From Hysterangium stoloniferum (lineage: Eukaryota > Basidiomycota > Agaricomycetes > Hysterangiales > Hysterangiaceae), in NCBI GenBank assembly GCA_015178975.1, contig WHVD01000128.1:62001-126000 (forward strand): a stretch of DNA of 64,000 bases, written 5' to 3'. Each line of letters opens with the position of its first letter. Position 1 is the first letter of the stretch. Below the pieces are notes generated by a model. The model was not told the origin of the DNA, did no database searches, and saw nothing but the letters and a program-made list of their open reading frames with translations. Shown here piece by piece: positions 5,994 through 62,464 of this stretch. The position numbers were made by a program, and so were the translations under genes.

Positions 5994-6156
5994 TTGGGTA
6001 TTCCGGTGACTGAAACACAACGTAACGAAGTTGAACGTAAACAAGTCTGATGTACGGAGTCCAGTGGGAATTCCGGTAAACTGACAATTGGTGCATATAG
6101 GATGCGGGTGCATATAAGTTAGTGCCCAGAGTCCAGTGGGAATTCCGGTCTTAACA
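5994..6156 (-). mobile_element. Shortened 3' LTR (LTR1) of element B
   Basis: The first 160 bp or so of LTR1 on the minus strand (TGTTAAGACCGG at 6156), preceded on that strand by the polypurine tract AAAGGGAGGGTAC (6157-6170). Confidence 0.75.
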
Positions 6157-6364
6157 GTACCCTCCCTTTATGCTGAAGTCCCAAAGAGGCTCTAGACCTT
6201 GATAAGGTTCTTGTCAGCTACATGCATGTGTCAAAAGTCATGTCAGTTACAGGTATGTGTCAAAGAGTCAGGTGATCTGGAAGGTAAGGTTCAGATGTGA
6301 CGAGCCTATATAAAAATTTGAAAAAATGAAATTTCTTCTTCTTTATTTCCCCCATCATCGAAAA

Positions 6365-6641
6365 ATGGGTCCAAAACTGATGCCAACCGCTGGGCCCTCC
6401 ACAGGCAACATCTATCGGGCACTGCTCATTGCTGCCCAAATTTTCGTGCAGCAGGAGGAGCAACATCGACAATGGGAGGAGGCTGAAAAAGATGCCAGGG
6501 AGGTCGAGGAGGCCCTGGATAGGGAGTACCAGGCAGCCTTGGCTGTGGAGAAAGCGGCAGAGGAGAAGAGGAAGAGGGATGAGGAAGAGGCTGCATGGGT
6601 TGCCGCAGAGAAAGTGTGGGTGGTTGTGGAGAGGGCCGCGG
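6365..6641 (+). other. Antisense ORF of element B, coiled-coil part
   Basis: This ORF runs against the gypsy element, between the 3' LTR and the end of gag-pol. It starts MGPKLMPTAGPSTG and then has a highly charged Glu/Lys/Arg/Ala stretch (EEQHRQWEEAEKDAREVEE, EEKRKRDEEEAA) that should form a coiled coil. A homologous ORF sits at the same place in element C (11218-11433). Just after 6641 the reading is interrupted by a solo LTR. Known parallels are antisense ORFs in some plant gypsy elements; its function here is unknown. Confidence 0.6.
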
Positions 6642-7258
6642 TGTGAGGAGTATGCTTTTACCACAGTTTCATTATGGTAAAACACTCCTTTTATTTTATT
6701 TATATTTTACACATTTTATTCATATTTTTCTATTCTTTATATTCTTCAAATATTGCACCATTTCCTTAGTTCGAAGCTTTGTGTATATTTGTGGGTGCAC
6801 TCAGCACCAAATGAAACTCAGACACTTTTACCCCACAACCACGACTTACCCAGACACCCAGTTAGTGTCCTGTAAGTTGTGATTGGGGTATCATCTTGAC
6901 CGTCACAGATGGGCTTTAACTATCCATGCGATCAGAGTTTTGAACTGTACCAGTCGAAACTCCACCTATATCTCAATCCGTGCAGACCACATCCACGCTA
7001 CTCTACTATTTGACTCTCTCGTTACTCTTTTCTACACTCGAGCAGTCATTCAGAATCACACTTAACAGTCAATTCCCTTTATTCGTTTTAGCTCTCTACT
7101 TTACTTTAGGTAGCTACTTCACTCAATTGTATTGAACTAAGTAGTCAATAACTGTTCAGTCTGTATTAGACTTAGACAGTCAATACATCTATGTGTTGTA
7201 CCTAAATGGTCAATATTCTTTGTATATAGAACGGTTAGAACTTCCACCACTCTTCACA
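6642..7258 (+). mobile_element. Solo LTR (LTR2 family) with CGCGG target duplication
   Basis: It starts TGTGAGGAGTATGC and ends CTCTTCACA. It is flanked by CGCGG at 6637-6641 and 7259-7263, an exact 5-bp duplication. It matches the 5' LTR of the plus-strand gypsy element at 18535-19161 (shared blocks include GTGTCCTG(T/C)AAGTTG and TTGGGGTATCATCT). The TATA-like TATATAGA lies near its end. Inserted into the antisense ORF of element B, so younger than it. Confidence 0.85.
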
Positions 7259-7292
7259 CGCGGTAGTTGCGGGCAAGGTAAGTCCCAATAAT

Positions 7293-7936
7293 TTGACTTG
7301 TCGTTTTTTTCTTTTGACCTGGAATTTTCAGCACAAGGTGACAGAAGTTGAAATGGAGTCTGAGGGGGAGCCGGAGAGCCCCAACAAAGTAAGTCTCGTG
7401 TCCATGGGAGATCTGTGGGAAACTGACCATATCAACAGAAAGCAAGGAAAGTGGTACCAGTCCATCTTCCTATGCAGAATGACCTGCGGTGTTCTGGTTG
7501 CAATGACCAGAACATGGAGTGTAATTGGAAGTCCAGGCAGGGTCCAGGCTGTTACCAGTGTGTGCACCTCAAGGTGAGGTGCCCATTGGTTCACGAGCAG
7601 GCCACAGGGTCCAGAGCATGGGATATTAGCGGGTCGAATGGGAACTCCAGTTTGGAAGAGGTTTTGGGATGGATCGCTGAGGGCATTGAAGCCCAGAACG
7701 AGTTGCTCTGGAAGAGCAACAAGGTGCATGTGGTGATGGCCACCAATCTCCGCACACTCCACTTGGAACATTACAAGTTCCTAGTGGAGTATGCCGGTTT
7801 TGTTTATGAGGAGGCGGAGGCCAGGAGTTCTGAGGACACCAGGTCGGATGAGGACCGGGTGCCCGCAGAGATAGCGGAGCTACCTGAGGAGATGGCTGGG
7901 GCAGGGAAAAAAGATAGCCCCATAAATGTAGATTGA
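7293..7936 (+). other. Antisense ORF of element B, Zn2Cys6-like part
   Basis: The main open stretch, 7451-7936, encodes a cysteine cluster with spacing C-x2-C-x6-C-x9-C-x2-C-x6-C (CSGCNDQNMEC, then CYQCVHLKVRC), which fits the fungal binuclear Zn2Cys6 consensus. An acidic tail ends the ORF (KKDSPINVD). GT...AG intron-like gaps lie upstream (for example GTAAGT near 7278 with TTTTCAG near 7331). Element C has an eroded homologue at 11743-12117. It may be an element-encoded DNA- or RNA-binding protein; the other Zn2Cys6 proteins known are transcription factors, but these short forms lack the usual middle homology region. Confidence 0.6.
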
Positions 7937-8184
7937 ACATAAAAAAAATAAAACTTGATAATAATTTTTGAACATATAAAAGTAAAGCATGAAAAAACAT
8001 AAGAATCAAAGTCTGCGGAGAATCCGCTTAAGGACTTGAAAAACATGTCAGAACCTGTAAAAGCAAAGAGAGACATAGGGTGACAGGGAATAATGAAAAT
8101 GAGTCCAAATGTAACACAGGGTCCACGGAGTGTGGTCAGAGAGATGATAGTGGTCCAGGTTTGAGTGGGTAAGCTGTGTGAAAG

Positions 8185-8427
8185 TCAGTAATGATTTCCA
8201 CATGGGAAACAGATGGATAAATTACAAGCTTGGGTGACAACCGAATTACTTGTGCCATCAAAGAGGTGGAGGATGATGGGATTTATCAGATAAGTTGACA
8301 ACAAATTTTTTTGTGTGAATTTTGTATCTAAAAAACAATGAGTCAAGCCGGAATCTATAAGAGCTGAAAAAACAAATTTTGGAATCATATTAGACATAAG
8401 TTTAACAAAAAATGAATTGGAATGCAA
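8185..8427 (-). pseudogene. Gypsy aspartic protease, start only (element B)
   Basis: Minus-strand fragment with ALIDSGLTHCFLDT, the DSG active-site loop of a retroviral-type protease, following gag. Fossil. Confidence 0.65.
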
Positions 8428-9796
8428 AAGAGTGGATGCATTGAGGTGGGTAAACTCTTGAATGTGCGGAGAGGCAACGCAACCCCCAACCCATGCAGAG
8501 TCTGTGGGGTTGCTTACTCTTTTTTCGAGTTGGAAGCCAGTTTATCCTTCGATGGGGTTTCCGTGGAGGTCTTGGCTGTTCAACCCTTTGCAGAGTTTGC
8601 TTTTGCCAGCAGACATTCCAGGACTCGATGACTGGGTTTCCTGCACAAGAGACAGAGGTTATTGTCCATATGATGTTGTCTTTCCTGGGGGTCAATTTGC
8701 CATCAGGTCCGAGTTTGCTTGTGAGGTCAGGTTTTCCGGCTTGCTTGCTGGACTGTTGACCCTTGTTGTTGTTGTTGTTGTTGTTAGAAGACGTTTTATC
8801 GTTCTTCTTGTTGGATTGCGTGGAGTTTTGGTTGCTGGTTGACGAGTTGTTGTTGTTGGTTTTATTGGCCATGGACCTGTTCACTTTGTCTGCAGAGGTC
8901 TCACGGGCAACTTCCACGCAACATTCCCAATAATGTGTGTCTGTGTTTTGAGCTTTGAGGCGCATACAGGACAGGGTTTTTGGCTTGCCATCTTCTCCTT
9001 TCGAGACTTCATCTTTAAGGCGGGATGGCAGACCGGCATAGAATTGGTGGCAGAGAGTGGGATCACCCCACTGACAACAAGCTGCAAGATTATTGAATTG
9101 GACGATGTAGTCCATGATGCACTGCGTGTCCTTCATACAAAAATTTGTGAGACTGTTCTCAGCTTCTCCTGTCAGGTCATATGGGCCAAAGTTGGTTTCA
9201 AGCTCCTCAACAAAAGCATCCCAATCTTCAAGCCAAAGTGGCTCTTCCTCAGAAAGCCCACTAAAAGCCAGTTCAAACCATTTCAACGCGGATCCTGACA
9301 AGTACAAAAGTGCGTAGTTGACTTTTCAGGAGTCTGTGGAGAATGCAGCGGATTGATTGTGGAAATTGAAGCGACATTGCATGAGGAAAGTAGAGAGTTT
9401 GTTTGGGTTGGAACCTGTGAAGGGTTTTGGAGCATTGACTTTTGACCACAGGGGTTCCGGATCTTTCTTTTTGCCTTCTCCAAGCATAAGATTCATCAAC
9501 CTTTCTAAAGTCATTGCTAAATACTCAGAGGTGGGATCTGAAAATGGCAGTTGATCGCTGGATGGAGGATTTTCGACACCTTTGCCCTTGTCAGGGGCCA
9601 CGGACCCATCCTCATGCTCGGATTCATCCTGGTTTTCCGGGACTTCTTCAATACGGACTTCTTCCATGGCTTCTGATTGGTTCGCAAGTGTCTGGCTGGT
9701 ATACAAAGTTAACAGGGAATGAAGAGTCGATGGTCCAGGTAATGATGCCTGTGTGTGCACTTTTCTTCTTGGTGGCATATTGAAAACAATCTGCAA
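8402..9796 (-). pseudogene. Gypsy gag (element B)
   Basis: Minus strand. The N-terminus reads MPPRRKVHTQ. A retrotransposon gag core follows (KPFTGSNPNKLSTFL, LSGSALKWFELAF, LEDWDAFVEELETNFGPYD, FNNLAACCQWGD, FYAGLPSRLKDEV). Then comes a long Asn/Ser/Gln-rich linker and a CCHC zinc knuckle (CLLCRKPSHRVLEC, near 8600-8650). The reading is broken. The order and the poly-Asn linker match the gag of element C at 18060-18534. Confidence 0.75.
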
Positions 9797-9814
9797 GTCT
9801 TAGTCAGGAGATAC

Positions 9815-10624
9815 TGTTAGGGTATGTAGACAGCGAGTTTCTGGAGAAACCCATGGGATATCTGGTAGGACTTGGCTTCAGCTTATAGGCTGCACCCTCA
9901 CGAGATTGTGTCGTCCAATTTCAGACAGGTGGATGGGAATCCCAGGGAGTCCGGGCGGGGTTTGTGGGTCGGGGGGGTCGTAGGTCAGAGGTTGTGAGTT
10001 GAGATAGATAAGAGAGATAGATGCGCTGGAGCCTGTGGGCTCCGACTAGCATGAGCGGTGTGATTCAAGTAGGAGTTTAGAGTGGAAAATGTATTAGATT
10101 ACTGGGGGGAATCTAAGTTGATTTTCTGACTGGATTGTATGTACAACATCTGCCAGACTATATAGACCGTGGAATGAATGACATACCAAATCCAGTAATA
10201 ATGAAATGAAACTAGCAAAACATAAAACAGGAATAGTAAACACCAAATTTGGTGTTAGGAACGGGATGGAACAGAGTGGAGTCCGAATCGTAACAAATCA
10301 TAAACCATAATGGGAAACGGAGCGGGAGTGGAGTCTAAATCGTGACAGGTCATTTGACTGAAATGGAAATGGGGCTCTGTTAGAGGGATGATGGGTTTTC
10401 TGAATGGGGTCCGGTGACTGATGTGTGGGACGAGGTCAGACATAGACAGGGATGGAGTCCAGTGGGTATTCTGGTGACTGAAACACAATGTAACGAAGTC
10501 GAACATAAACAAGTCTGATGTACGGAGTCTGGCAGGAATTCCGGTAAACTGACAATTTGTGCATATAGGGTGCGGGTGCGTATAAGTTAGTGCCCAGAGT
10601 CTGGTGGGAATTCCGGTCATAACA
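9815..10624 (-). mobile_element. 5' LTR (LTR1) of element B
   Basis: On the minus strand it starts TGTTATGACCGG at 10624 and ends CCCTAACA at 9815, about 810 bp, with the AACACCAAATTTGGTGTT palindrome and TATA box. It lies inside the 5' end of a Tc1/mariner copy (10625-10880). GTCAT follows at 10625. Confidence 0.8.
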
Positions 10625-10880
10625 GTCATGTGATCTGGGCATAGAGATATGATCAATTTAAAACAGCAATACTATGGAAAGGGTTTTTTCACTTTTGAAC
10701 TGATGACTAGGATCTCAGTCAAATCATAAAATAATGGCCATTATTTGTTGGTACAAACAAATATATACATGTAAATAGTATTTCTGAGTTTAAAAAAGTT
10801 CCCACACTTCTTGATTCCTAACCACCATCATGGTCAGATCCCTCTTTCTTACTCAACAAAACACCATCCTGAGAACAAGG
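10625..10880 (+). mobile_element. 5' end of a Tc1/mariner element (type B)
   Basis: GTCATGTGATCTGGGC, AGATATGATCAATTTAAAAC and GGAAAGGGTTTTTTCAC match the terminal region of the element at 62731-64000. Further on, ATGGTCAGATCCCTC (MVRSL) matches the start of that transposase. Sequence after about 10880 is unrelated LTR material. Remnant only. Confidence 0.7.
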
Positions 10881-10884
10881 GGGG

Positions 10885-11000
10885 TCTGGTATGTCTGGGT
10901 GGGGTCCAGTGCATTGTTCATATGATACAGAGAGTTGGCATATATAGAATGGGGTCAAAGTCCTGGCAGGTTTTCCAGTCATAACAGTATCCTCCCTTTA
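10885..11000 (-). mobile_element. 3' LTR remnant and polypurine tract of element C
   Basis: On the minus strand TGTTATGACTGGAAAACC begins the LTR at 10985. It is preceded by the purine tract TTAAAGGGAGGATAC (10986-11000), as at 3177 and 6157. Only about 100 bp of LTR remains. Confidence 0.6.
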
Positions 11001-11217
11001 AGGCTGAAGTCCCATGGAGGCCTTAGAGACTTTGTCAGTTACACTTATGTATGTATTGTATGTATGTGTCAAGATGTCAGGTGATCTGGAAGGTAAGGTT
11101 CAAATGCAAGGAGCCCATATGAAAATTCAAAATATAAATTTTCTTCTTCTTTCATTCCCCCACATTGTCACTGTGAGACCAAAACCAATTCCATGAAAAC
11201 CAACCACTGGCTCATCC

Positions 11218-12117
11218 ATGGGCTCCACCTATCAGGCACCTCTCACAGCTGCTCAATTGCTTGAGCAACATCACCAGCATGAAGAGGCCAAGAAGAAGGC
11301 CAGGGAAGAAGAGGCTGAGTTGGAGAGGGAGTACCAGGCAGTGGTGGCCATGGAGCAAGAGGCAGAGGAGAAAAGGAAGAAAGATGAGGAGGTGGTGGCC
11401 CAAAAAGCAGAGGCAGAAAAGGAGGTGATATGAGTTGCTGTGGAGTGTGCCAAGGTGTCCATGGTGGCTGTGGGAAAAGTAAGTTATTTTATTTTATATT
11501 TGAAGTTTTATGCTGACTATTTCAATAGTGCAAAGTGGCTGAAGTTGAGTCAGAGTCTGAGGGAGCCCCCAAAAGGTAAGTGAGTAACCCATGGAAAACT
11601 CCCATGACTAATTTATGCTTGACAGAAGACTCAGAGGAATGGTCCAGCCTGCCTGGAGACCAAGAACAACCTGCAGTTCTCTGGTTGTAATGACCTGAAT
11701 ACTGAATGTTACAGGAAGTCTGGTTGGGGGCTTTGTGCACACTTGAAGGCCAAGTGTTCCCTTGTGCAAGATGCATCAGAGTTCAGGTCACAGGAATCAG
11801 GAAGTCATGCAGAGAAACCAGGAATCATTGAGGAGGTACTGGGACAGATTGCAATGGGCATCAAAGTCCAAAATGTCTTGTTGCAGGAGGGCAACAATGT
11901 CAGAAAGACACTGGTGGGCAGTTTTCAAGAGTTCTATGGACTCTTCCAGCAGTTCATGGAGAACTACAAGGGTTATGAATGGCCCGATGCCGTAGAGGCC
12001 AGTAGTTCTGAGGGGACTGAGGGTGCCATGGGGTCCATGGAGCTTAAAGAGCTTCATGAAGAGTTTTTTGAGGTTGGGAAAAAGAAACCTAGCCTACCTA
12101 TTGAAATAGAAGATTAG
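11218..12117 (+). other. Antisense ORF of element C (coiled coil plus eroded Cys cluster)
   Basis: The plus strand runs against the gypsy pol. The first part (11218-11433) is a Glu/Lys/Ala-rich coiled coil homologous to that at 6365-6641 (EEEAELEREYQAVVAMEQEAEEKRKKDEE). The last part (11743-12117) is homologous to 7451-7936 and ends in the same acidic way (EIED). GT...AG intron-like gaps lie near 11479-11526 and 11575-11623. Some cysteines of the Zn2Cys6 cluster are still visible around 11680-11765. Broken copy. Confidence 0.55.
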
Positions 12118-12299: not shown

Positions 12300-13745
12300 T
12301 CAGAGACATAATAATGGTCCTGGTTTGACTGGGTAGGCTGTATAAAAATCAGTAATGATCTCCATGGCATTCCTGAGTTCCATGGCCAACATCCAAGAAG
12401 TTTCTTCATCTGTGCCTTCATAACCTGCCTCCTTGACCAAGTAGAGCAGTTTACAAGTGCATCAACAATTATCTATTTTTAAGTCTAGAATTTGTGAGAT
12501 TTCAAACTCAGGTTCTCCATCTATAATGAACAGAGGGGGCAGAGGTTGCACATGGTCTGGGATAGTGTTAGCAGTACATGGTTCTAACATAGAAACATGA
12601 AATACCAGGTGAACCACACACATGCTATCTGGAAGCTGCAGGGTCTATGATACAGAGCCAGCTTGTCCTATAATTTCAAATGGCCCTAAATACTCTTCAG
12701 CAAGTTTTTTAGAAGGATGGGTAGTCCAGAAGAATTGAGCTTCAACAAAAACATGGTTACCAATCTTAAGATTAGGTAATGGAATCCAGGTCTTGTCCAC
12801 TGAACATTGATATTGTTCTTGGGTGGATGTTATTGCTTTCCAGAGTTCTTGATGGAGTTCATTGAGGTCCATGACAAACTCTTGAGCATGGGCAGAGACC
12901 AAGTTCCATTCCAGGTGTACCATGATATTGGGATTATAACCCTTATTTGCAAAGAAGGGGGATACACCATTAGTGGCTGAGGGTGCATTGTTGTATGCAA
13001 ATTCTGCAAGGGGTAACAGGGATTTCCAGTTATCCTGTTAATAGTTACAATATACATGGAGGTATTATTCCAGTGTCTGATTGACATGCTCAGTGGTCCA
13101 TCACCTTCTGGGTGGTACAGTGTAACTTCATGTCCAAGGATTTTCTGAGGGATCTAAAGAAGTGAGATACTAACTCTGATCCTCGATCAGAAGTTATGTG
13201 GGATGGGACTCTGTGCCTGGAAAATATGTGGATAATGAAATGTTCTGCTAACTGCACAGACATAATGGTGTTATGTGTTGGGATGAAAATACATTGCTTG
13301 GAGAATCTGTCAACAATGACTAGAATGGTGGAATAGCCTTCAGAGTCCAGTAGGTGTTCAATGATATCCATAGAGATGGAATTCCACAGGTACTCTGGTA
13401 CTGGGACTTGTTTCAGAAGGCTGTATGGCTTGTGATGCTGTGTTTTGGAGTGTAAACAAGTAATGCAAGATTTACAATAGTGCTTAATGAAATCTTGGAG
13501 TCCAGGCCAAGTATATTCTCTTCTTTTCATTGATAGAGTCTTGTTGAGCCCAAAATGTCCTGAGAGTGGGTGATCATGTGTGTACTGGGTAATTCTGAGA
13601 CAGAGGCCATCAGAGTCCAGTACATAGATATATGATTGTCAAGTCTAATGAAACCATGCTGGTCTAGAGACCGCTGGGGTTGACTGGGATCCATGGGGTT
13701 GTCAAGATGTGCCTTGGTTACCAGGTCTAGTGGAATTGCCAATAG
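12300..13745 (-). pseudogene. Gypsy integrase and chromodomain (element C)
   Basis: Minus strand. The zinc-binding domain (CKSCITCLHSKTQ) is followed by an integrase core (PVPEYLWNSISMDIIEHL, LVIVDRFSKQCIFIPT, ITSDRGSEL) and a C-terminal barrel (WIPLPNLKIGNHVFV, KKLAEEYLGPFEI). The chromodomain tail is near 12300-12460 (YLVKEAGYEGTDEETSWML). The chromodomain places the element among the chromoviruses. Broken. Confidence 0.8.
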
Positions 13746-14200
13746 AATATCTTAATGTAATTTCTCAATATCTATAATGATAATTCCACACCTGCCTGGA
13801 TGAATAAGGTAAGTAGTCTGGACTGATGTGGTAAGTTGTGAATTCATGAATATTGGTTTCAAGTTATGTGAGTTTACTGTGGCATAATTGTTACTCCCCT
13901 CTTTGGGATAGACATCCCATTGTCTAGTCAAAGTGTCAGGTTTTCTCCCAAGGTAGCCAGGTCAAACGTGGATGATCATATTAAAGGCAGATAGATATTC
14001 AGACCACCATGCTTGCTGGTAGGTCAAAGGTTTCATGGTCGAAAAATATTCCAGGTTTTTGTGATCTGTTACAATATCAACTGGAATTTCTGTGCCCTCC
14101 AAATAGTGTCTCCACACTTTGAAGGCTTCAAAAATCATGAGAAGTTCTTGTCATGGATGTTGTAATTGAGCTCTGGTCTGGTAAAAATCTGGGAGAGAAA

Positions 14201-14759
14201 GGAGGATAGTCATAATTCATTGAATATACAAAATTTTATGAAAACTCCTCATATTTTTAAGTGAGACTACTTCCGCTGGCTATGACTACATGTTTTAGGG
14301 GTTTATATTTAATTACCTGAAATTTCATCTTTAAAATATGCATGGCCTTTTAAAATACACACAAATGACATAGTTACACAAAATTATTTGGGTTAACCTA
14401 GATTATTTGGGTTAACCTAGATTATTTGGGTTATGACTTAATCTTTGGGCTATGATGTATTCTCTTGTATACAAGCAAACTTTCAAATATATTTCATATA
14501 ATTTAAATTTAGTTGGTTTAGAGAGTCAACCAGAACTATCTGGGGTACCAATCTCCATTGTGCAATTTATTCCAAAAGAATAATCTACAGATGATTGTTT
14601 GACTAAATTTTGTCAGATATAGGATAAATATTAATATTTTTGCATTCTTCAGAGTGATACCTAATCAACTGAATTTGATTAAATATTAATTTACAAAAAA
14701 CAATATAAATATATATATTTTAGTGGATGAATAACTTTTAAAGTTTTGGGTTATCCTCC
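14201..14759. mobile_element. MITE-like insertion with GGAGGATA ends
   Basis: A 559-bp AT-rich, non-coding block starts GGAGGATAGTCATAA and ends TTATCCTCC, giving an 8-bp inverted repeat. It interrupts the RNase H region of element C. Part of a second copy in reverse orientation is at about 28235-28422, ending at the same GGAGGAT tip. Inside are three near-perfect copies of ATTATTTGGGTTAACCTAG (14384-14435). A 3-bp AAA may be the target duplication. Confidence 0.55.
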
Positions 14760-15853
14760 AAAAGTGACAGGGTGAATATCTCCATTGGAGTCCTGGATTG
14801 ACAAAATGGCTCCTAACACATAGTCTGAGGCATCTGTTTCAACAATGAGTGGGAGGCCTGGCTTCCAGTGCAAAATAATGGGAGCTGAAGAAAAAGAATC
14901 TTTTAAAAGATTAAAAGCAGTATGACACTTATCATTGAAATTCCACAGAGCATCCTTACAAGTAAGACAAGTAAGGGGGACTGTGATCTCAGAATATTCA
15001 TGGATAAACTGCCAGTAAAAATTGGCAAATCCGAGGAAAGATTGGATATCTTTAACGTTTTGGGGTTCAGGCCAATCTTTGATGACTTGTACTTTGGCCT
15101 TGTCCATCTGGAGTCTATTGGGTCCCATAATAAAACCCAAATATTCCACAGAGTCGTGTCAAAAGTACATTTTTTACTGTTTGTGAATAGACCATGTTGT
15201 CAGCATCTCTGGAGAACCTCATGGACCTGTTCATTATGTGCCACAAGATCCTTGGAGTAGATAAGAATGACATCCAAATAAACAATGACACATGCATCAA
15301 GCATGTCAGAGAAAATATTGTTAATAAAACATTGAAAAACAGATGGAGTGTTGGTTAGCCTGAAGGGCATCACCAACCATTCAAAAGCTCTGTAACAGGT
15401 CTGGAAAGTGGTTTTCCACTCGTCTCCCTCAGCATTCCAGACCAAGTGGTAGGCATGTTTGAGGTCTATCTTGGTATAGATCTGGGCATTCTGTGGAGCA
15501 TTGAGTAGGTTGGAAATAAGCAGGAGCAGATACTTGTCTTTCCATGTGACAGCATTGAGTCCACAGAAGTCAATGTACAGTGTAAGGGATCCATTCTTTT
15601 TTCTGACAAAAAGAATGGGTGCTCCAAAAGAAGACTTTGATGGCCAGATAAAACCTATGGACAAGTGTTCATCCAAGAAATCCTGTATGGCAGAGAGTTC
15701 CATGGAGGACAGTGGGTAAATATGTCCAAGGGGTGCCCAGCCCCCATCTTCAAGATCAATTTTTAAGTTGTACTGTCTGTGGGGGAGAAACTGGTCAGCT
15801 TTTTTCATACTAAAAACATCTGTGAAGTCATAATATTTCTCCAGGACTGTCAC
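14760..15853 (-). pseudogene. Gypsy reverse transcriptase and RNase H start (element C)
   Basis: Minus strand. Motifs include FGAPILFVRKKNGSL, YIDFCGLNAVT, IYTKIDLKHAYH, VMPFRLTNTPSVFQ and the region around the catalytic motif (VIVYLDVILIYSKD). These are followed by VEYLGFIMGPNRLQMDKAKV and ETDASDYVLGAIL at the start of RNase H. Family assignment to Ty3/gypsy is secure. Broken. Confidence 0.85.
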
Positions 15854-16223
15854 AAATGTACAAGCTCAACTTTTGATAATATTCAATTTAACTTTCTTCA
15901 ACATTCCTTCGACATTCCTTTGACTTTCCGACTCAATTTCTGACTCAACTTCCAATTCAACTATTCTTCAACAATATCTTCAACTTGTCTCAGTTTGATG
16001 TCATTGATGATTTCACTTTGATATCATATTATCATCATAGGTAAATGATACAGTATATAGTATATAAGGGCAATGATAGGAACAAAGGAAGTCAGTCAGA
16101 AAACCTGTATCTTAATCTGTATTATTACTATTATATTAATATATTTGACTTCTATCTAATATTTCTTCAACATAATTATTCATGAGCCTCTGTGTCCTAT
16201 ATTTGCCTCACATTTTATCAACA
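15848..16223 (-). mobile_element. Probable solo LTR (LTR6) in element C
   Basis: On the minus strand the block starts TGTTGATAAAATG and ends TTTGTGACA (TG...CA), 376 bp, and interrupts pol between protease and reverse transcriptase. Flanks (AGGAC and GGATG) do not form a clean duplication, so the exact ends are uncertain. Confidence 0.5.
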
Positions 16224-16699
16224 GGATGAATTAATACTTCATCAAATAAGGTATCTGTATTTGATATTGTTGAATGTTCTTCAATTGTTTATTTGCCTTT
16301 ATTGAGTAAAATTTGATTCGTGACAAGGACACCTTCTAGGTCAGTGATGTGCTTGGAATCCAGAGTCACAAAACATCTGGTTGCTTCATCAACTTTCAAA
16401 TTGATTGTGAACACCTGGGATCTGTCCAATTTTGTAGCCCTAATAAAAGCTGCTGCATTAATGAGGGAAATGTATGGGATTACTGTGGGTTCTGGTGAAG
16501 CCAAAGATGCCATAGGGAAATATCCAGGGCCAATACAGTTATATTGGGTGCTGCAGGCATCTGGAAAGTAATACTGCCTGATACCCAGTCAATCAACAGA
16601 TTGTGTCAGGTAAGCCAGTTATGTCCTAGGATGACTGAGTAACTTGATTCCAACTGCATCACATAGAAAGTGACTGTCTGTAATCTGATAGGTAGGTTG
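16224..16699 (-). pseudogene. Gypsy protease-to-RT linker region (element C)
   Basis: A minus-strand open stretch (16289-16513) reads VIPYISLINAAAFIRATKLDRSQVF, typical of the region between protease and reverse transcriptase in basidiomycete gypsy elements. Fossil. Confidence 0.6.
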
Positions 16700-17490
16700 T
16701 GTTAAGAACAGAAAACTGACTGATGTCGGTAGACTGACGGGGACTGAATGGAAGGACCTGGCTTCAGCTTATGTGCTGCGCCCTTGCAAGTTACCATCAG
16801 GTGTCCTTAAATTTCAGGTGGGTGGAAACTAGTCCTGTGGAGTAAACCTCTTGGTAAACTACCGATCAGAAACCGAAGGATAAGTCGAGGGTTGGGTCAG
16901 AGAGTCAGAGACTGAGAGTTGGAGATTAGAGGTTGAAGTCGTAAATGTAGGTTGAATCGTAAATTGGATGGAGTCGGAATGTGGTGGTCATGAATAGATA
17001 ATGGAGTCAGAGATTAGAGGGGTATCTAAGTCGATATTCTGATTGTCTAGTAGTTACATTACAGTGGGTCTATATACAAGTTATTGGTGTCTAGAAACTA
17101 CTAACTAAAGGAAGAGTAGAAACACTATTTGACAAATAGACTTGACTAGAAACTGGAAGGTTACAATAAGATGAGAAGCCATGATTTAGTTGAGAGCGGG
17201 ATTACGAGAAAAGGGAATAGTCCACAGGCTACCAGTAATACAGGCATATGTGAAACATAAAGTAAAATGGATCATCATAATGAAAGGAAATGTATCAAAG
17301 CATAACCAGATGGTATGAGTATATTTTGACAGGGGTGTAAACAGGGTTTGATCGCCATGAAGGTATACATCAGTGTTGGTGTTCTGACAGTTTCCGAAAT
17401 GATGACTTGATCAATAACTTGGAATGTCGATAGATGGTAGTATTCTCGGGGACTGTTGGGTTGCGACATGGTTATGACACAGTTGTAACA
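16700..17490 (-). mobile_element. Solo LTR (LTR4 family) with GGTTG target duplication
   Basis: On the minus strand it starts TGTTACAACTGTGTC at 17490 and ends GTTCTTAACA at 16700, 791 bp. GGTTG flanks it at 16695-16699 and 17491-17495. A partial copy in the opposite direction lies at 4611-4934. Inserted in the protease region of element C. Confidence 0.85.
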
Positions 17491-17495
17491 GGTTG

Positions 17496-18534
17496 CAAGC
17501 TTGGGTGATAACTGAATTACTTGTACCATCAAAAAGTTGGAGTCCAACCAGGTTTATTGAATAGGTTGACAACAGATTCTTTCAGGTGAATTCAATATCT
17601 ACAAAGCAATGGGTTGAGCTGGAATCCAGAATCACAGAAAAAATGGAGTGCAGGATCATATCACAAGTAAATTTTACAAATAATGACTCAGAATTCAAAA
17701 GAGCAGATGCATTCCCCTGACACAGCACTTTCTCCCACACTATCCCCCTGCCTCCAGAGCTGGGACCCACAAACAAATCATCAGTGACTTTTATGGCACC
17801 ACACTAACTTGCACTACATAGACTGCAGCTCCAGCTCACAGCAGGCGGAAGATCTTGTTGACACAGGAATTTGAGAAGATACACAAAGAATTCTTCTGGG
17901 TTTTGCTCTTTCATCATCAAGAATTCCTTGCATCCTTTCCAATGTGAGACTTGAACAGGTTACTGCCTTATTGGAATACGAGCATTGGCATCAAGGAGGG
18001 GTGAATGAGGGGATCAGCTGTTAAATATTTTAGTTTAGAATTATAATTGACATCCCAAGATGGGTGAACTCAAGAATGCATGCAGAGTTAACACAACCCT
18101 CAACCCACACAGAGTCCAGAGGGTTGCTTACTCTTTTTATGGATTGGAAGCTGGTTTCTCCTTCAATGGGACACTGTGGAGGAAGTATTGGGTGCATGAC
18201 CCTTGGCAGAGTTAGCTTTCACTATCAGGCATTCCAGGACATGATGACTGGGTTTTCCACACACACAACACAGAGATTGTTGTTCATATGATGCTGTCCA
18301 TATGATGCTGTCTTTCTTGTGGGGTCAATTTGCCATTGGGTCCAAGTTTGCCTGTAAGATCGGGCTTCCAGTGGCTTTTACAGATTGCTGACCTTTGTTG
18401 GTATTACCAGAGTTGTTGTTGTTGGAAGATTTCTTGTCATTCTTCTGGTCAGATTGCATGGAGTTTGAGTTACTGGTAGATGGGTTGTTGTTGTTGGTTT
18501 TGTTTGCTGTGGACTTGTTGGATTTGTCCATCGG
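17496..18534 (-). pseudogene. Gypsy gag and protease remains (element C)
   Basis: Minus strand. Protease-like THCFVD near 17590-17640, then an Asn-rich gag linker at 18325-18531 (NNNNPSTSNSN) like that of element B. About 345 bp at roughly 17713-18057 has no counterpart in element B and is not recognised. Gag is cut at 18535 by the plus-strand gypsy element. Broken. Confidence 0.65.
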
Positions 18535-19161
18535 TGTAAGAGGTACCCTTCATAATGGGAATGTGACTACTTTATCAGACTATATTCTGCATATTTTTCC
18601 TTATTCTTTACTATTTTTAAAACCCACATTTACATTAGTTCAAAGATCTATGTACACCTGTGGGTATATAGACCTTATAGCACTTATGCTCACTTACTGT
18701 ATACTTATTTACATTAGTGGGTGCAACAAGAAACTCAGAGACTTTTTACCCTGTAACCACAACTTGCCCAGACACCCCTTTTATTGTCCTGCAAGTTGTT
18801 ATTGGGGTATCATCTCAGCCATCTCAAATGGCTTTCAACTCAAACTTGCTACAACTGTCTGGCTTCAAACTGCATAGTTGAAGCTCAAGCTATCATTGGC
18901 GTCTACTTGCATCTCACACTACTTGTATCATACTCTATCCTCATAACTCCTTACTTCATTAACTCGCATTTAGAATTGTACTGTAAGGTCGATCCTATTC
19001 TCCCTTAGTTGTCTTAGTTATCCTATGGCTACTTAAGTCAACTAACATTATTCTACTATGTACATATATTGTACTTCAATAGTCAATATATTTTCATGTC
19101 ATACCTAGACAGTTGATATTCTTTGTATATAGAGTGGTCAGAACTTCCATGACTCTTCACA
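18535..19161 (+). mobile_element. 5' LTR (LTR2 family) of gypsy III
   Basis: It starts TGTAAGAGG and ends CTCTTCACA, 627 bp, and is homologous to the solo LTR at 6642-7258. TATATAGAG near its 3' end may be the promoter. ATCGG precedes it, but the partner flank is lost. Confidence 0.8.
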
Positions 19162-22169: not shown

Positions 22170-23112
22170 CTATGCAATCAATGGGAACTGAAATTGCTCA
22201 CCTCATCAAGAGTATCTCAAAAATTGAGGAGGAGCACATTCTTCACCCCCAGTTGTTCAAGTCATTCTTTGAACAAAAAACAGTAGATGATTTCGACCCA
22301 GTGGGACTGAAAACCTCTGAAGTTGCCACTATGGAGAAGCTCCAATTTGGAGGATCTCCAGAAAATAGTTAATTTAGAACCTGATATTCCCACTGACATT
22401 TCACCTTGTTTCAATTCTATACTGACTAAGAATGTTCAAGCTTTTGGAGTGGATGGACAACTAGGACAAGTGGATGTTGAAGTTACCATCCTGTTACAGA
22501 GTGGCATGCAACCAACCTTGGTGCCAATGTTCCAGACCTCCACCGCTAACAGGAAAGTCATTGATGAACAGATGGATACCTGGTTTCAGCAGGGAGTCAT
22601 TAAACCATCCAAGAGCCCTTGGGGAGCCCCAGCCTTTGTCATTTATTGCAACAGGAAACTTTGAGTAGTAATTGATCATTGAAAGCTAAACAACCTTACT
22701 GTCCCCAACAAGTTTCCATTATCATGCCAATTGGAAATAATGCAAGCTTTAACCAGATCTAATGTTTTGTCTTCCTTCAACACATTAGCAGGCTTCACCC
22801 AACTCAAGATACTAGAAGAAGACAAACCAAAGACTGCTTTCAGATCCCACAGAGGACTGTGGCAATTGAAAAGAATGCCATTCAGATTAAGGAATGGGCC
22901 CTCTGTTTTTCAGAGAGTGATGCAAGCTGTACTCATCCCTTTTATATGGATTTTTTGCCTGGTTTACATGATGACATCATGATCTTTTCTAAGACATGGA
23001 AGGAACATCTGGAACATTTGGATCAGGTTTTACAAGCTATCATTGCAGCTGGCATAACACTTTCCCCCAAAAAATGTTACATCAGGTACAACTCAATCCT
23101 GTTACTCAGACA
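22170..23112 (+). pseudogene. Gypsy III reverse transcriptase, first part
   Basis: Plus strand. Motifs QMDTWFQQGVIKPSKSPWGAP, FNTLAGFTQLKI, KTAFRSHRGLWQ and RNGPSVFQRVMQ belong to a gypsy reverse transcriptase. It stops at the TA where the Tc1 element is inserted and resumes at 24918. Broken. Confidence 0.75.
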
Positions 23113-23561
23113 TACAGTAAGGGACAAAACCCTTCCAATGATTCTTAGTTGTGCAAATATTCTTGAATAACTCAAGAACCACTGTAGATAATGACCTGAA
23201 ATTTGGTGGTTGGTTAGGTCTGTATGTTATCTATATGCCCTTAAAATATTATGATATATGTAGTATTACCCATGCTATAAACAAAATAATAACAAAATCA
23301 CATTGGAAGGGTTTTGTCCCAGTCACATCATTAGCACAAAACCTTATTGATTATCTGCAAATAAGGTTTTGTTTAATCATGTAACCTGTCAAAATTAGAT
23401 ATATATATAGTTGTTCACTTTCTAGTTCACTTTCTAGTTCAACAACATCCCCACAACTCAATATTCTGTTGAATGAGTAATGGTTGACCTGGATATATTA
23501 ATATCTTACTGATGACTAATCATCTCAGTAGTAACTGGTTCTTAATAGAACTACTTTTAAT

Positions 23562-23641
23562 GGCCTGATAGCTCAGGAGTTAAGAGCACTAGACATGTAA
23601 TCCAAACTTAGTGGTCGCTGGTTCAAATCCAGCTCAGGTCA
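23562..23641 (+). tRNA. tRNA-Thr(TGT)-like sequence inside the Tc1 element
   Basis: GGCCTGA pairs with TCAGGTC (7 bp, one G-T) to form the acceptor stem with discriminator A. The D arm is GCTC/GAGC with loop AGGAGTTAA. The T arm is a perfect GCTGG/CCAGC with loop TTCAAAT, and the variable loop is TGGTC. The A box (TAGCTCAGGAGTT) and B box (GGTTCAAATCC) look usable. The anticodon arm is odd: CTAGA-CATGTAATCCAAA-CTTAG, about 6 nt too long, with A instead of T before the TGT anticodon and imperfect stem pairs. It may be a pseudo-tRNA or hold a tiny intron. No CCA is encoded, as in eukaryotes. Confidence 0.55.
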
Positions 23642-23683
23642 ATATTTTCAGCCTGCTTATGTAATTCTTACATATTCTACACC

Positions 23684-24700
23684 ATGAAAGCTCTTATTCC
23701 TGCTCAGGTTAGCCACACACTCACTTTGCTCAATAAGGGCAAGTTTGCTTCTCAGATCTCTGTAATCACTGGCAGAGGTCTGTCTACTATATCCAGAATT
23801 TGCTTTATCCATTGCCCATCACTTGTCAAAGCAGCTGGTGGCCATCCATGTAAGCTTTCTCCCTCAGGTATTTATTATTCCATCCAACAAATCACTGCTC
23901 AGAAGGCCGAACATGCCACTGAGGTCACCAAAATCCTTCAAAATATGACTGGAGAGTTCATTTCAGTGAAGACTGTTCATAGAGCACTCAAGAAGGCTGG
24001 ATTGAGGGCTGTGGTGAAGAGAAAAAGACCTTTACTCACTCAGAGGCATAGGAAGGCAAGGATGGACTTTGCTCTGGCATACAAGGACTGGGCTGTGGAT
24101 GATTGGAAGAGGGTTGTTTGGTCAGATGAGACAAAAATCAATCATTTGGGATCAGATGGGGAGGAAGTGGGTGTGGAAAAGGGCAGAAGAGGGGCTCAGT
24201 GATAGGGTGGTTGATGGTACAGTTAAGTTTGGAGGAGGAAATCTGATGTTGTGGGGCTGTATGTTGTGGGAAGGACCAGGATCCTCCACCAAGATTGATG
24301 GAAGGATGGATGCTAACCTTATGTTAGTATTCTGGAAGATGAACTTCAAGCAATTATGGAGTATTATGGCAAGAACACAGAAAATGTGGTCTTTCAGCAA
24401 GACAATGACCCCAAATACAAGAGCAAGAAGGCCATCAATTGGTTTAAAGACAATGGATTTGTGGTCATGGTATGGCCACCTCAGTCTGCTGACCTTAATC
24501 CAATTGAACACCTCTGGTATTACCTCAAAAAGAGGCTGGGAGAGTATGAAATGGCATCCAAGAGTATTCATGAGTTGTGGGAGAGGGTTCAGACAGAGTG
24601 GGAGAAGATCCCTGTCTCTACTTGTCAGAACTTGATAGAGAGTATACCTAGAAGGGTTGAGGCTGTTTTGAAGGCCAAGAGAGGCTATACCAAGCACTAA
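23684..24700 (+). pseudogene. Tc1 transposase (DD34E), two frameshifts
   Basis: The N-terminal helix-turn-helix half begins MKALIPAQVSHTLTLLNKG. The catalytic domain has WSDETKINHLGSDG (first Asp), VFQQDNDPKY (second Asp) and SADLNPIEHLW (Glu), with 34 residues between second Asp and Glu, so DD34E, the Tc1 group. The C-terminus ends KRGYTKH. The reading shifts frame near 24160 (an extra G in ATGGGGAGG) and again near 24330, so this copy is probably inactive. Length without the shifts would be about 340 aa, normal for Tc1. Confidence 0.85.
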
Positions 24701-24917
24701 ATTGTTTGATTTGTGTTCTTTTTATACCAGGGACAAAACCCTTCCAATGTGATTTTATTAGTGTTTTGTTTATAGTGTGTGCTTATGTCATAATATTTTA
24801 GATAACATATTGACCTAACCAACCACCAAATTTCAGGTCTGTATCTACAGTGGTTCTTGAGTTATTCAAGAAGCTTTGCACAACTAAAAATCATTGGAAG
24901 GGTTTTGTCTCTCACTG

Positions 24918-25386
24918 TAAGGTGTCACAACTTGGTTTCTCAACCTATCAAGAAAGCATTGCTGCTATATTAGAACTAGCTCAAGCCAATAAGTTAGGAG
25001 AGTTACAGTCCATCCTTGGAATGGTCTTATATTTTTCAGCTTATATACCATTCTACTCCTGGATAGTCTCTCCATTATTCAATCTCTTAAAAAAGGGAAC
25101 CCACTGGACCTGGAACTCCAAACATACCAGAGTCTTTGAAGACATCGAGGTCACATTGAGTTCTGCTTCTGTTTTAGGTCACTCCATTAGTGGAATACCC
25201 TACCATCTGTATACAGACACTTCCAATTTTGCCCTGGGATGCTGCCTCCAACAAGTCCAGAAAACAACACTACAGGATTTAAAGGACACCACAATGTATG
25301 CTCAAGCAAGATCCACTTTTGAATAATCACAAGAAGTACCTGTCTTTGTTACTTGGTACAAAACCAAGGAACCAGAAGTCACCTGG
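24918..25386 (+). pseudogene. Gypsy III reverse transcriptase/RNase H, middle part
   Basis: Plus strand. KVSQLGFSTYQES, LGELQSILGMVLYFSAYIP and YTDTSNFALGCCLQQ are the end of a gypsy reverse transcriptase and the start of its RNase H. It lies between the Tc1 element and the nested LTRs. Broken. Confidence 0.75.
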
Positions 25387-51468: not shown

Positions 51469-52519
51469 TGTTACGACCGGACAATCCCGCCGGACTCTGG
51501 GCACTAACCCGTACGCCCCCACGCGCTACAAGCACCAATCGTCTGTTTATAGGATTTCCCGCCCGGACTCCGTTATGTCAAGACTCGTTACGTTTCGACC
51601 TCATTACGATACATATCAGTCACCGGACTTCCCCCGGACTCCGTCTCTGTCTATGTCCGTCTTCGTCCCACGCATCAGTCACCGGTCCCCGCTTAAGAAT
51701 CCCGTTACCGCTCTAATCGAGCCCCATTCCCGTTTTAGTCAAATGACCTGTCACGATTTAGGACTCCGCTCCCGCTCCGTTTCCCGTTATGGGTTATGCT
51801 TTGTCACGATTCGGACTCCGCTCCGTTCCGTTCCGTTCCATTCCGTTCCGTTCCGTTCCATTCCGTTCCGTTCCGTTCCATTCCGTTCCGTTCCGTTCCA
51901 TTCCGTTCCGTTCCGTTCCGTTCCGTTCCGTTCCGTTCCGTTCCGTTCCGTTCCGTTCCGTTCCGTTCCGTTCCGTTCCGTTCCGTTCCGTTCCGTTCCG
52001 TTCCGTTCCGTTCCGTTCCGTTCCATTCCGTTCCGTTCCGTTCCATTCCGTTCCGTTCCGTTCCATTCCTAACACCAATTTGGTGTTTACTATTCCCGTT
52101 TCATGTTTTGTTAGTTTCGTTTCGCCATTACTGGATTTGGTATGTCATTCACTCCATGGTCTATATAAACTGGCAGATGTTGTACATACAATCCAGTCAG
52201 AAAATTAGCTTAGATTCCCCCCAGTAATCTAATACATTTTCCTCTCTAAACCCTACTCTTATCAGACCGCTCACACTAGTCGGAGCCCACGGGTTCCGGC
52301 ACATCTAAACTCTCTCGACCATCTCGACTCACAACTCACAACTCACGACCTACGACTCACGACCCATGAACCCCTGCCCGGACTCCCCGGGACTCCCGTC
52401 CGCCTGTCTGAAATTGGACAACACGATCTAGTGAGGGCGCAGCCTATAAGCTGAAGCCAAGTCCTACCGGATATCCCGCGGGTTTCTCCGGAAACCCAGC
52501 CTGTGTGTGTATCCTAACA
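51469..52519 (+). mobile_element. Solo LTR1 with GTTTC target duplication
   Basis: It starts TGTTACGACCGG and ends ATCCTAACA, flanked by GTTTC at 51464-51468 and 52520-52524. It has the usual palindrome (AACACCAATTTGGTGTT) and TATA box (TCTATATAAACTGGCAG), plus a long CCGTT array. Its sequence is less decayed (more CG pairs) than the other LTR1 copies, so it is likely the youngest here. Confidence 0.9.
51816..52070 (+). repeat. CCGTT pentanucleotide array in the LTR
   Basis: About 50 pentamers. The outer parts show a 20-bp rhythm in which every fourth unit is CCATT; the centre is pure CCGTT. Other LTR1 copies have only 2-5 units at this position, just before ATTCCTAACACC. Confidence 0.95.
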
Positions 52520-60919: not shown

Positions 60920-61837
60920 GCTGGGGTGGGTCTATAGGTACAGGTAGTTGAGTATCAATACCAGTATCATCAGGCACAGGATATAAACGAGACATTAAAC
61001 ATATTAGGTAGAATATACTTTTACTTGGACAAATCTTGAAAGCTGGCGCAGCGCTGGCCGGGGCGGGGTGACAAGACGGGGAGAGGTGGTGTGGGCATGA
61101 TGATGCGATATAATATGGTGAGCAAGAAAAGGGGAATCGAAGTCGAAGTGTAGGTAGAGAGGACAGGAATAGAAGTGAGGGGAGAAATAACAAAAGGGAG
61201 CTGGCCAGAGGAGACGATGGTGAAACGATCCCATTCATATCTCCATTTTCATCGTCCGCATACTGCTCCACAGACTGCCATGCTGCACATTTGTGGGGAA
61301 CAGCGCAAGCGTGGTCCCCAGGCCCGACAGGTGCTGGTACGACTGGCGCGTCGTCGACGTGTACAGGTGATATGAGCCGGTATACGACGTGTGGTGGGAG
61401 TCGTACGCCTCCCCGCGTGCGTGCGAGAAACAGCCCGGCCCGGCCCCCGATCCACCCCCCGCCGCACCACTCCAGCTCGTCGTGGTGGTGCTCGAGCTCG
61501 ACATGGTCGGCGAGCCCCGAGGGCCCTGGGAGAAAACCGGCGCCGTCAGCCTCCCAAACCCCGGCGCGCCGCCCTCCCCTCTCCGCCGCTGCCGCCCCCA
61601 CTGCCCGTGCCCGTGTCTGTGTCCGCCACCGCCACCGCTGCTGCCACCGTGTGGCCCGTGCGGGCTGTGGCCGCCGTACGTGTGCCCCAGCTTGGGGAAG
61701 GTGGGGCTCTCGAGCTTCGCGGAGGGCGGGAAGGCGGGGTGCCATGTCGTGGCGGGGGGGAAGTGGTTGTCAGGGTCCGCGTAGATGGCGGGTCCGTTCA
61801 GCGCGGGCACGGCATCTGCGTAGTGGTGGCTGAAGTC
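60920..61837 (-). other. Non-repeat insert 2: GC-rich, probable captured host gene fragment
   Basis: 61290-61837 is strikingly GC-rich. On the minus strand one frame has G/C in most third positions and reads HHYADAVPALNGPAIYADPD, FPKLGHTYGGHSPHGPHG, then Gly/Ser/His-rich sequence and SSSSTTTTSWSGAAGGG. This looks like the disordered part of a host protein. It begins directly at the edge of the right 20-bp array and lacks a start of its own. The AT-richer part (60920-61290) could be the 3' untranslated region or an adjoining exon. Not identified. Confidence 0.55.
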
Positions 61838-61995
61838 TTGCAGTGTCGCAAAAAGTCGCACAGTGTCACAAAGTGTCACACAAAGTCGCAAAGTGTCACA
61901 CAAAGTCGCAAAGTGTCACACAAAGTCGCAAAGTGTCACAAAGTCACAAAAAGTCACAAAGTATTGCAAAAAGTCACAAAGTGTCACAAAAACTC
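61838..61995 (-). repeat. 20-bp tandem array, right block (inverted)
   Basis: About 8 copies in the opposite orientation (CAAAGTCGCAAAGTGTCACA), continuous with the right TIR. Confidence 0.95.
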
Positions 61996-62464
61996 ACATC
62001 ATTAAATTTTAAATTTCATTATGGTTTTCCCCTTGACAAAACTTTAAGAAAACTTTGTCTTCTCACAAGATTTTTTCAGACAGGAAATCACAGTTTTCAC
62101 TCAATTCCCTGAGGGGCAAAATTGAGTAGAAATATGTAGTTTTTAATTAATTTCTCTAGGCACATTATTACAGTTTTCATAGGATTATGTTGGGTGGAAA
62201 AACCCTAACAAAATACAGGGTTTTTTAAGAGTTTTCTCATTCATAAAATCCATAAAAAATAGGCTATTTCTAACAATGTTTCCTTACAATTTCCTGATGC
62301 AGATTTTTAGGATTTTCAGATACAATTTTTGGCCTCAGAAAAACCTGCTAATACCCACAATTTTCAAACAGTTTTTGTGTTCAAAAAATGCTTAGAAAAT
62401 TTGGCCAAATAGCAAGATTTTCTGAAGGTTTTCCAACTCCAAAAATCTTAGGGTGCCTCCAGTG
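61965..62464 (-). repeat. Right terminal inverted repeat
   Basis: Inverse of 58039-58540; ends GGGTGCCTCCAGTG, followed by TTT. Confidence 0.9.

Follow-up and report, generated by a model that had tools for sequence, protein, structure and literature searches.

The question raised by this locus is whether a retrotransposon may carry, opposite to its gag and pol genes, a further gene of its own, and what the product of such a gene would do. The locus lies in a stretch of 64,000 nt from the basidiomycete Hysterangium stoloniferum (contig WHVD01000128.1, positions 62,001 to 126,000; hereafter, the window), in which two minus-strand gypsy-type elements, elements 1 and 2, each hold plus-strand open reading frames (ORFs), here called copy 1 and copy 2 of the antisense gene. 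A sequence-only reading of the window had described these ORFs as sharing one plan (a charged coiled coil, a six-cysteine cluster and an acidic tail), taken them for a real part of the element family and proposed that the protein could regulate the element or host genes. The ORFs are present opposite gypsy gag and pol as described, and their being a genuine component of the family is borne out by conserved splice sites, by selection, and by other copies and lineages. Judged by its substitution pattern, the antisense gene is a selected gene of the element, under purifying selection. That it encodes a nuclear DNA-binding regulator of the element's own long terminal repeat (LTR) is a reading to which we give about as much belief as doubt.

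An intact form of the gene is found in another copy in the same genome, L031. The LTRs of this copy are identical over 821 bp (956-1776 and 8238-9058) and GCTGA flanks both sides, and its minus strand carries a gag frame of 438 amino acids and a pol frame of 1304 amino acids. It is a young chromovirus copy: young because of the identical LTRs and the 5-bp target duplication, and a chromovirus by the C-terminal chromodomain in pol (Pfam PF00385, E-value 4.4e-07; PF24626, 2.9e-21), the two LTRs, gag and pol, and the target duplication. The antisense gene lies on the plus strand between the 3′ LTR and pol, with a TATA box at about 1926, an ATG at 1987 and a stop at 2967. Two introns of about 50 nt each (2314-2362 and 2420-2468), both sitting between codons, separate three exons, which join into a spliced frame of 294 codons without a stop. 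The helix and the cysteine cluster, earlier taken for a single ORF, are instead exons 1 and 3 of this spliced gene with an acidic exon 2 between them, and the protein runs from the charged helix through the acidic exon 2 linker to the six-cysteine (Cys6) cluster, a further stretch and the acidic tail. By composition, exon 1 would form a charged helix (A, E, R, K, Q and L make up 94% of residues 28-104, P and G being absent), and its hydrophobic residues show a period of about 3.67 (11/3) that was equalled by 2 of 1000 shuffles, four periods having been tried. The open gag and pol frames of L031 overlap by 187 nt at 6909-7095, in different frames, an arrangement that suggests frameshifting to make pol. 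The style of the introns and the type of element would also place the host among the basidiomycetes.

Conservation of the gene model was assessed in 28 family-1 copies, namely the 29 aligned without L030, which lacks the 5′ part. Of these, 27 keep the TATA box and 27 the ATG; at the splice sites, donor 1 is intact in 25, donor 2 in 27 and both acceptors in all 28. The stop is conserved too, and the whole resembles a gene transcribed by RNA polymerase II. Relative to L031, triplet indels account for 32 of 44 indels in exon 1, 21 of 29 in exon 3 and none of two in exon 2, whereas intron 1 has 12 among 82, intron 2 one among 33 and the 3′ flank 38 among 114. The median pairwise ratio of nonsynonymous to synonymous substitution rates (dN/dS) of the gene frame in family 1 is 0.215 (377 pairs, which share copies, so that neither these nor the other pairwise counts are independent). 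The remaining plus-strand frames give 1.04 and 1.12 and the minus-strand frames 1.03, 1.37 and, for the mirror frame, 0.33; the mirror frame is interrupted by 140 stops in 7921 codons, whereas the gene frame has 31 in 7955. Although the loci were picked by similarity in exon 3, which favours copies with an open exon 3, exon 1 is free of that choice, and by itself it yields a dN/dS of 0.203 with 24 stops in 2790 codons. The low dN/dS and the triplet indels in exons demonstrate that selection acts on the protein. Exon 3 of family 2 gives 0.207 (15 pairs, about 83 codons), and for the pol C-terminus the values are 0.262 (family 1) and 0.103 (family 2); the constraint on the gene is about equal to that on pol in family 1 and weaker than that on pol in family 2. 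In families 1 and 2 alike, a stretch reading GTGTCA...GTCATGTGA precedes the TATA box of the antisense gene (L031 1829-1898, partly doubled; L044 about 900-940).

Homologues were searched for in the fungus's own genome (111 Mb in 554 contigs), with 1149 candidates in one search, 503 for family 2 and 927 for copy 2, sets that overlap and are not to be summed. Of the 1149 candidates, 150 were scored; all match at E-values of at most 3.9e-63, and 99 of them are stop-free. The ORF is thus conserved among other copies of its family, and free-standing host genes, the outcome that the sequence-only reading had set against its own claim, are not the rule in the loci read. In locus counts that include the window copies (L001 and L059), the pol C-terminus lies antisense downstream of the gene in 26 of 30 family-1 loci (the exceptions being L003, L010, L024 and L025), in all 20 family-2 loci and in 8 of 10 lineage-3 loci (not in L066 and L067); in L014 and L029 it has been displaced by an insertion. 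LTR sequence is found upstream of the gene in 28 of 30 family-1 loci, L024 and L030 excepted. The antisense position between the end of pol and the 3′ LTR therefore holds across the loci read. Family 2 has the same three-exon plan (seen by eye in one copy), with exon 1 open in L058, and its full-length copy L057 encodes a gag of 441 and a pol of 1302 amino acids between LTRs that are 99.9% identical. Median identity between families 1 and 2 is 28% in exon 3 (72 pairs) and 76% in the pol C-terminus (78 pairs). Among nine relatives of copy 2 that were fetched, L060, L063, L065 and L066 have all six cysteines in an open stretch, L064 keeps the six with a stop among them, and L061, L062, L067 and L068 have lost at least one. 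The plan is common to three diverged chromovirus lineages. Viral contigs and prokaryote genomes, scanned by pattern (46 and 66 hits, respectively), yielded no confirmed relative.

Among decayed copies listed from the same genome, in-frame stops are mostly TGA, as expected from the decay of CGA codons at CpG sites. Several of the young, nearly identical copies are found no more than a few kb from the end of a contig, probably because the assembly broke in recent repeats. Beside the full family-2 element, L057 holds on the minus strand an ORF of 197 amino acids (101-691) that seems to resemble a Tc1/mariner transposase.

In 29 copies that were not chosen by motif, the six cysteines of the cluster are kept at 172 of 174 codons, with L023 and L012 losing one each (in an earlier alignment their invariance stemmed partly from picking members by the cysteine pattern, a bias of which this count is free). 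Conservation in these copies is 0.99 for the cysteines and 0.72 for the rest of exon 3; the cysteines are not alone in this, as 46 of 166 exon 3 positions are identical in all copies, four of the six cysteines among them. The full cluster is present in 28 of 30 family-1 and in 20 of 20 family-2 loci, with a middle spacing of nine residues in family 1 and ten in family 2. Both fit the spacing of the Zn2Cys6 cluster, which in PF00172 is C-x2-C-x6-C-x5-12-C-x2-C-x6-8-C.

In the window itself both copies of the gene are damaged: exon 1 of copy 1 is split by a solo LTR, and copy 2 lacks two cysteines and the ATG. The features of the two elements are as follows.

5995..6156, minus strand: truncated 3′ LTR of element 1 (blastn with the LTR of L034, 88%)
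6157..6172, minus strand: polypurine tract of element 1 adjoining the 3′ LTR (from the sequence; same position in L031)
6307..6313, plus strand: TATA box of the copy 1 antisense gene (conserved in 27 of 28 family-1 copies)
6365..6641, plus strand: copy 1 exon 1 from the ATG at 6365 to the insertion point, charged helix (tblastn with exon 1 of L031; sequence)
6642..7258, unstranded: solo LTR of another family within copy 1 exon 1, 617 bp (5-bp duplication CGCGG at 6637-6641 and 7259-7263)
7278..7331, plus strand: copy 1 intron 1, GTAAGT...CAG (conserved in relatives)
7332..7388, plus strand: copy 1 exon 2, acidic, 57 nt (model from L031)
7389..7438, plus strand: copy 1 intron 2, GTAAGT...CAACAG (conserved in relatives)
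7439..7936, plus strand: copy 1 exon 3, with Cys6 cluster, helical part, acidic tail and stop TGA
8139..8682, minus strand: pol remnants of element 1 with an internal deletion, chromodomain end at 8139-8201 (tblastn)
8517..9793, minus strand: gag of element 1 (Retrotrans_gag, PF03732)
9844..10624, minus strand: 5′ LTR of element 1 (blastn with the LTR of L034, 88%)
11173..11460, plus strand: copy 2 exon 1, codon 1 being GTG
11626..12117, plus strand: copy 2 exon 3, including the stop and lacking Cys1 and Cys4
12303..18335, minus strand: pol remnants of element 2 in several pieces (Pfam reverse transcriptase, RNase H and integrase; tblastn)
18131..18537, minus strand: gag remnant of element 2 (tblastn)

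The portion of the solo LTR at 6815-7259 is an 87% match to the sequence upstream of the L060 gene. The spacing C-x2-C-x6-C-x9-C-x2-C-x6-C noted earlier for copy 1 is seen at 7439-7933, and the proposed common plan is recovered by alignment of exon 1 (6365-6559 with 11179-11460) and of exon 3 (7439-7933 with 11626-12111). The full cluster ascribed to copy 2 did not survive inspection, since this copy reads QFSGC...GLCAHLKAKC, without Cys1 and Cys4.

The gene has had a history unlike that of the pol beside it, represented in these comparisons by the 3′ 1 kb of pol adjacent to the gene. Between L031 and L036, the difference per sequence window is 3-9% in pol and gag and 6-14% in the LTRs but 21-27% in the three that cover the antisense gene, and transversions amount to 6-14% in the gene versus 0-2% in pol and gag. 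All 231 pairs among 22 copies show greater divergence in the gene than in the adjacent pol, with a median transversion difference of 0.074 for the gene and 0.013 for pol, and the two distances are barely correlated (rho 0.13-0.16). Seen from L031, the block of high divergence begins at the ATG and ends at about 3090, some 100 nt before the pol stop, while the leader, the TATA box and the polypurine tract around it are conserved; U3 (the LTR part derived from the 3′ end of the RNA) at 1580-1740 is also highly diverged in seven of the nine copies with usable data, L036 and L007 being the exceptions. In the approximately unbiased (AU) test each of the two trees of these 22 copies, that of the gene and that of pol, is rejected by the data of the other (p 5e-4 on gene data, 7.5e-53 on pol data). 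Most supports in the pol tree are low. L036 groups by its gene with L015, L018 and L022 (support 92-100) and by its pol with L031, L016 and L030 (split support 86). Internal branches sum to 1.02 for the gene versus 0.17 for pol, and terminal branches, obtained by subtraction, to 2.19 versus 1.51. Because of these sums, neither decay after insertion nor a local mutation rate easily explains the step in divergence, and a simple difference in rate was judged an unlikely cause. On the trees and branch lengths, the gene types are older than the pol genes now travelling with them. As the gene is closer than pol in none of the 231 pairs, a sweep of pol seems to fit at least as well as exchange of the gene as a cassette. 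The gag N-terminal region and 5′ leader are likewise 19-20% diverged between L031 (7856-8450) and L034, compared with 5-14% in the rest of gag and pol.

How a nuclear regulator of the element's own LTR could work may be sketched as follows. Transcription would start at the gene's own TATA box, with the U3 of the 3′ LTR as upstream sequence, and the introns would not be lost in retrotransposition, since what the sense genomic RNA contains is only their complement. Such natural antisense introns parallel the antisense-intron reporters by which retrotransposition is measured. The protein would pair through its long charged helix, enter the nucleus by means of the basic stretch KRK...KKARK across the exon joins and bind U3 with its Cys6 cluster. 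As the 5′ LTR carries the same U3, which would drive gag-pol, one protein would set the expression of the element as well as its own. In retroviral replication the 3′ end of the RNA is the template for U3 in both LTRs, and its 5′ end that for R-U5 (the repeat and unique 5′ parts); regulator and target would for that reason be inherited together. As to the direction of the effect, we lean to activation or anti-silencing over repression. Tentatively, and with more doubt than belief, we extend this proposal to a swappable self-recognition module made of the antisense gene and U3, in which each element type would have its own sequence-specific regulator and matching LTR sites, many old types would persist in a single genome, and a younger, common gag-pol backbone would have spread among them by recombination. 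If so, private transcription systems would distinguish retrotransposon lineages in the way that VANC distinguishes VANDALs, and the regulator would be kept as an intron-bearing gene, which is possible only in the antisense position.

The link between gene type and U3 was examined by partial Mantel tests on 13 copies with 2000 permutations. With pol held constant, gene distance follows the U3 block (rho 0.48, 14 of 2000 permutations) and does not follow R-U5 (0.04, 739 of 2000), whereas pol distance, with the gene held constant, does not follow U3 (-0.17, 1702 of 2000) and leans towards R-U5 (0.26, 67 of 2000). Several points weigh against a regulator that recognizes its own U3. The correlation can arise from linkage alone, because both U3s have their template at one end of the RNA (3′) and R-U5 at the other (5′), and L036 breaks it by combining an L031-like U3 with another gene type. 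No target motif held up, either among CGG dyads or among repeated 7-mers. CGG-N3-CCG occurs four times in family-1 U3 versus 0.28 expected (none of 300 shuffles), but was dropped as evidence of target sites because pol is likewise enriched in both families (11 versus 0.94 expected in family 1, 12 versus 1.04 in family 2). The commonest U3 7-mer occurs four times in L031, L018 and L036 (GGACTCC) and in L034 (GAATTCC), a count reached by 9, 6, 3 and 6 of 200 shuffles, respectively, and gives no signal in L007, L057 and L058 (74, 200 and 52 of 200 shuffles), so that repeated 7-mers may serve as a weak lead only. In exon 1 the heptad signal is absent, a period of 3.5 being equalled by 592 of 1000 shuffles, and pairing through a classical coiled coil is accordingly unproved.

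The protein class is subject to similar reservations. Zn_clus (PF00172) is matched by 16 of 20 members and by none at the 21-bit cut-off (best 16.4 bits, E-value 0.01), and L015, L041 and L044 have no Zn_clus row in the Pfam scan. The first half of the cluster aligns to PF00172 positions 16-34, the second half of the profile, in L016, L019, L027, L029, L031, L036 and the window protein, and the second half to positions 2-18 in L007 and L021, which suggests that the halves are swapped relative to PF00172. A profile search of the PDB placed the Leu3 zinc cluster on top (E-value 0.085), and four of seven matches up to an E-value of 10 are Leu3 or Pho7 chains; none is significant, and one talin and one transporter chain appear at E-values similar to that of Leu3. 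A single-sequence AlphaFold model of the window protein has a mean predicted local distance difference test score (pLDDT) of 37.8 and no usable fold. Since the resemblance to Zn2Cys6 lies below the Pfam cut-off, the earlier suggestion of a regulator can be upheld only conditionally, and its extension to host genes finds no evidence here.

Other functions have to be weighed against regulation of the element's own LTR. HBZ of human T-lymphotropic virus type 1 (HTLV-1) is thought to act against the sense programme of that virus. The antisense position and the long charged helix of the present gene, with a convergent transcript, would fit a role like that of HBZ (named in PMC11963269), in which the protein represses its own element for copy-number or latency control and is still produced by old defective copies. 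A copy that has lost most of pol can indeed retain the gene sequence, as element 1 of the window does, yet there the gene itself is split by the solo LTR, and we consider repression unlikely. We are similarly sceptical of a function outside transcription, such as nuclear import, Gag assembly or choice of integration site. The basic stretches across the exon joins and the long charged helix would suit it, and the plant antisense proteins are without an established role, the Grande protein being nuclear and DNA binding by Retand TRP28 only predicted (PMC11963269); on the other hand, pol already has a chromodomain (PF00385, 4.4e-07), and the tracking of U3 by gene type would be left unexplained unless it reflects linkage.

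Far less probable is that the antisense transcript matters rather than the protein, by pairing with the genomic RNA and feeding or blocking RNA silencing. A convergent promoter would yield double-stranded RNA, as discussed for plant antisense ORFs (PMC7264820), but the dN/dS of 0.215, the triplet indels in exons and the cysteines kept at 172 of 174 codons demonstrate selection on the protein, and a role of the transcript alone is, on these selection data, refuted. To a chance ORF or a host gene fragment riding along we assign next to no probability: several frames are open for at least 110 codons in this region of the intact copy, but purifying selection, conserved splice sites, occurrence in three lineages and at least 150 scored homologues refute it.

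Antisense accessory genes of LTR elements are already known, and the spliced zinc-cluster version appears to be new; none was found in the literature searched, which is weak evidence of novelty, as most subscription papers were outside its scope. For the ascomycete Botrytis cinerea, brtn is said to be an antisense gene of Boty-like elements (reportedly Zhao 2011). It is cited as an additional antisense gene of Boty-like chromodomain Gypsy retrotransposons of B. cinerea (PMC7264820, PMC4227169, PMC8365987), and thus, compared by description only, shares with our case the fungal chromodomain Gypsy element and the antisense gene, in a different fungus. The plant antisense ORFs of Grande and Retand occupy the same place and orientation and are present in most copies of their families; the Grande protein is located in the nucleus, an upstream promoter drives transcription of its gene, and Retand TRP28 is predicted to bind DNA (PMC7264820, PMC11963269). 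For the plant elements TRP28 or SMC domains are named, whereas the gene described here belongs to a fungal chromovirus and has two introns and a Cys6 cluster; the words intron and zinc do not occur in the accessible text of PMC7264820 or PMC11963269. Pfam TRP28 (PF04195) has no row among the proteins that we scanned. A figure legend in PMC2864245 mentions an 'add. ORF' of unknown function among elements from fungi and a spikemoss, element and strand being unspecified in the accessible text, and in PMC5689174, on elements of Boletales, the words antisense and ORF do not occur.

Fungal Zn2Cys6 factors (PF00172; Leu3, Gal4) have six cysteines with matching spacing, and PF00172 and Leu3 are weakly matched by our proteins; these differ, however, in falling below the Pfam cut-off, in the reverse placement of the halves and in a long helix before rather than after the cluster. 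The domain of HBZ is a basic leucine zipper (bZIP), of the coiled-coil type. Like the gene as proposed here, HBZ encodes a regulator on the antisense strand near the 3′ end of its retroelement and has a nuclear role (PMC11963269), but the HTLV antisense promoter is within the 3′ LTR (PMC7264820), whereas here the element itself contains the TATA box and the protein has a Cys6 cluster. The elements with VANC come from Arabidopsis, unlike the fungal ones with a Cys6 cluster described here. VANDALs are DNA transposons, and we know of no zinc cluster in VANC. Like our protein, the anti-silencing protein VANC is encoded by the element, and related VANC proteins act on completely different sets of elements, their targets differing from one related element to the next (PMC5735166).

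For years, antisense genes have been recorded as accessories of LTR elements with no function assigned to them (PMC7264820). A single genome here offers a very large natural series, in which the gene model is spliced and intact, has a TATA box of its own, is under purifying selection and occurs in types whose history is unlike that of the adjacent pol. Whether retrotransposons carry private transcription factors thereby becomes testable by ordinary binding and reporter assays.

Elsewhere in the window, a second, distant gypsy-type pol remnant lies in the opposite orientation at 22473-25248 on the plus strand, with 29-33% identity to family-1 pol. On the minus strand at 51469-52519, two pieces of LTR sequence are 93-95% identical to the LTR of the young copy L031 and look like a recent solo or interrupted LTR. 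The kilobase at 61001-62000 has a G+C content of 0.598, compared with 0.436 and 0.357 in the adjoining kilobases.

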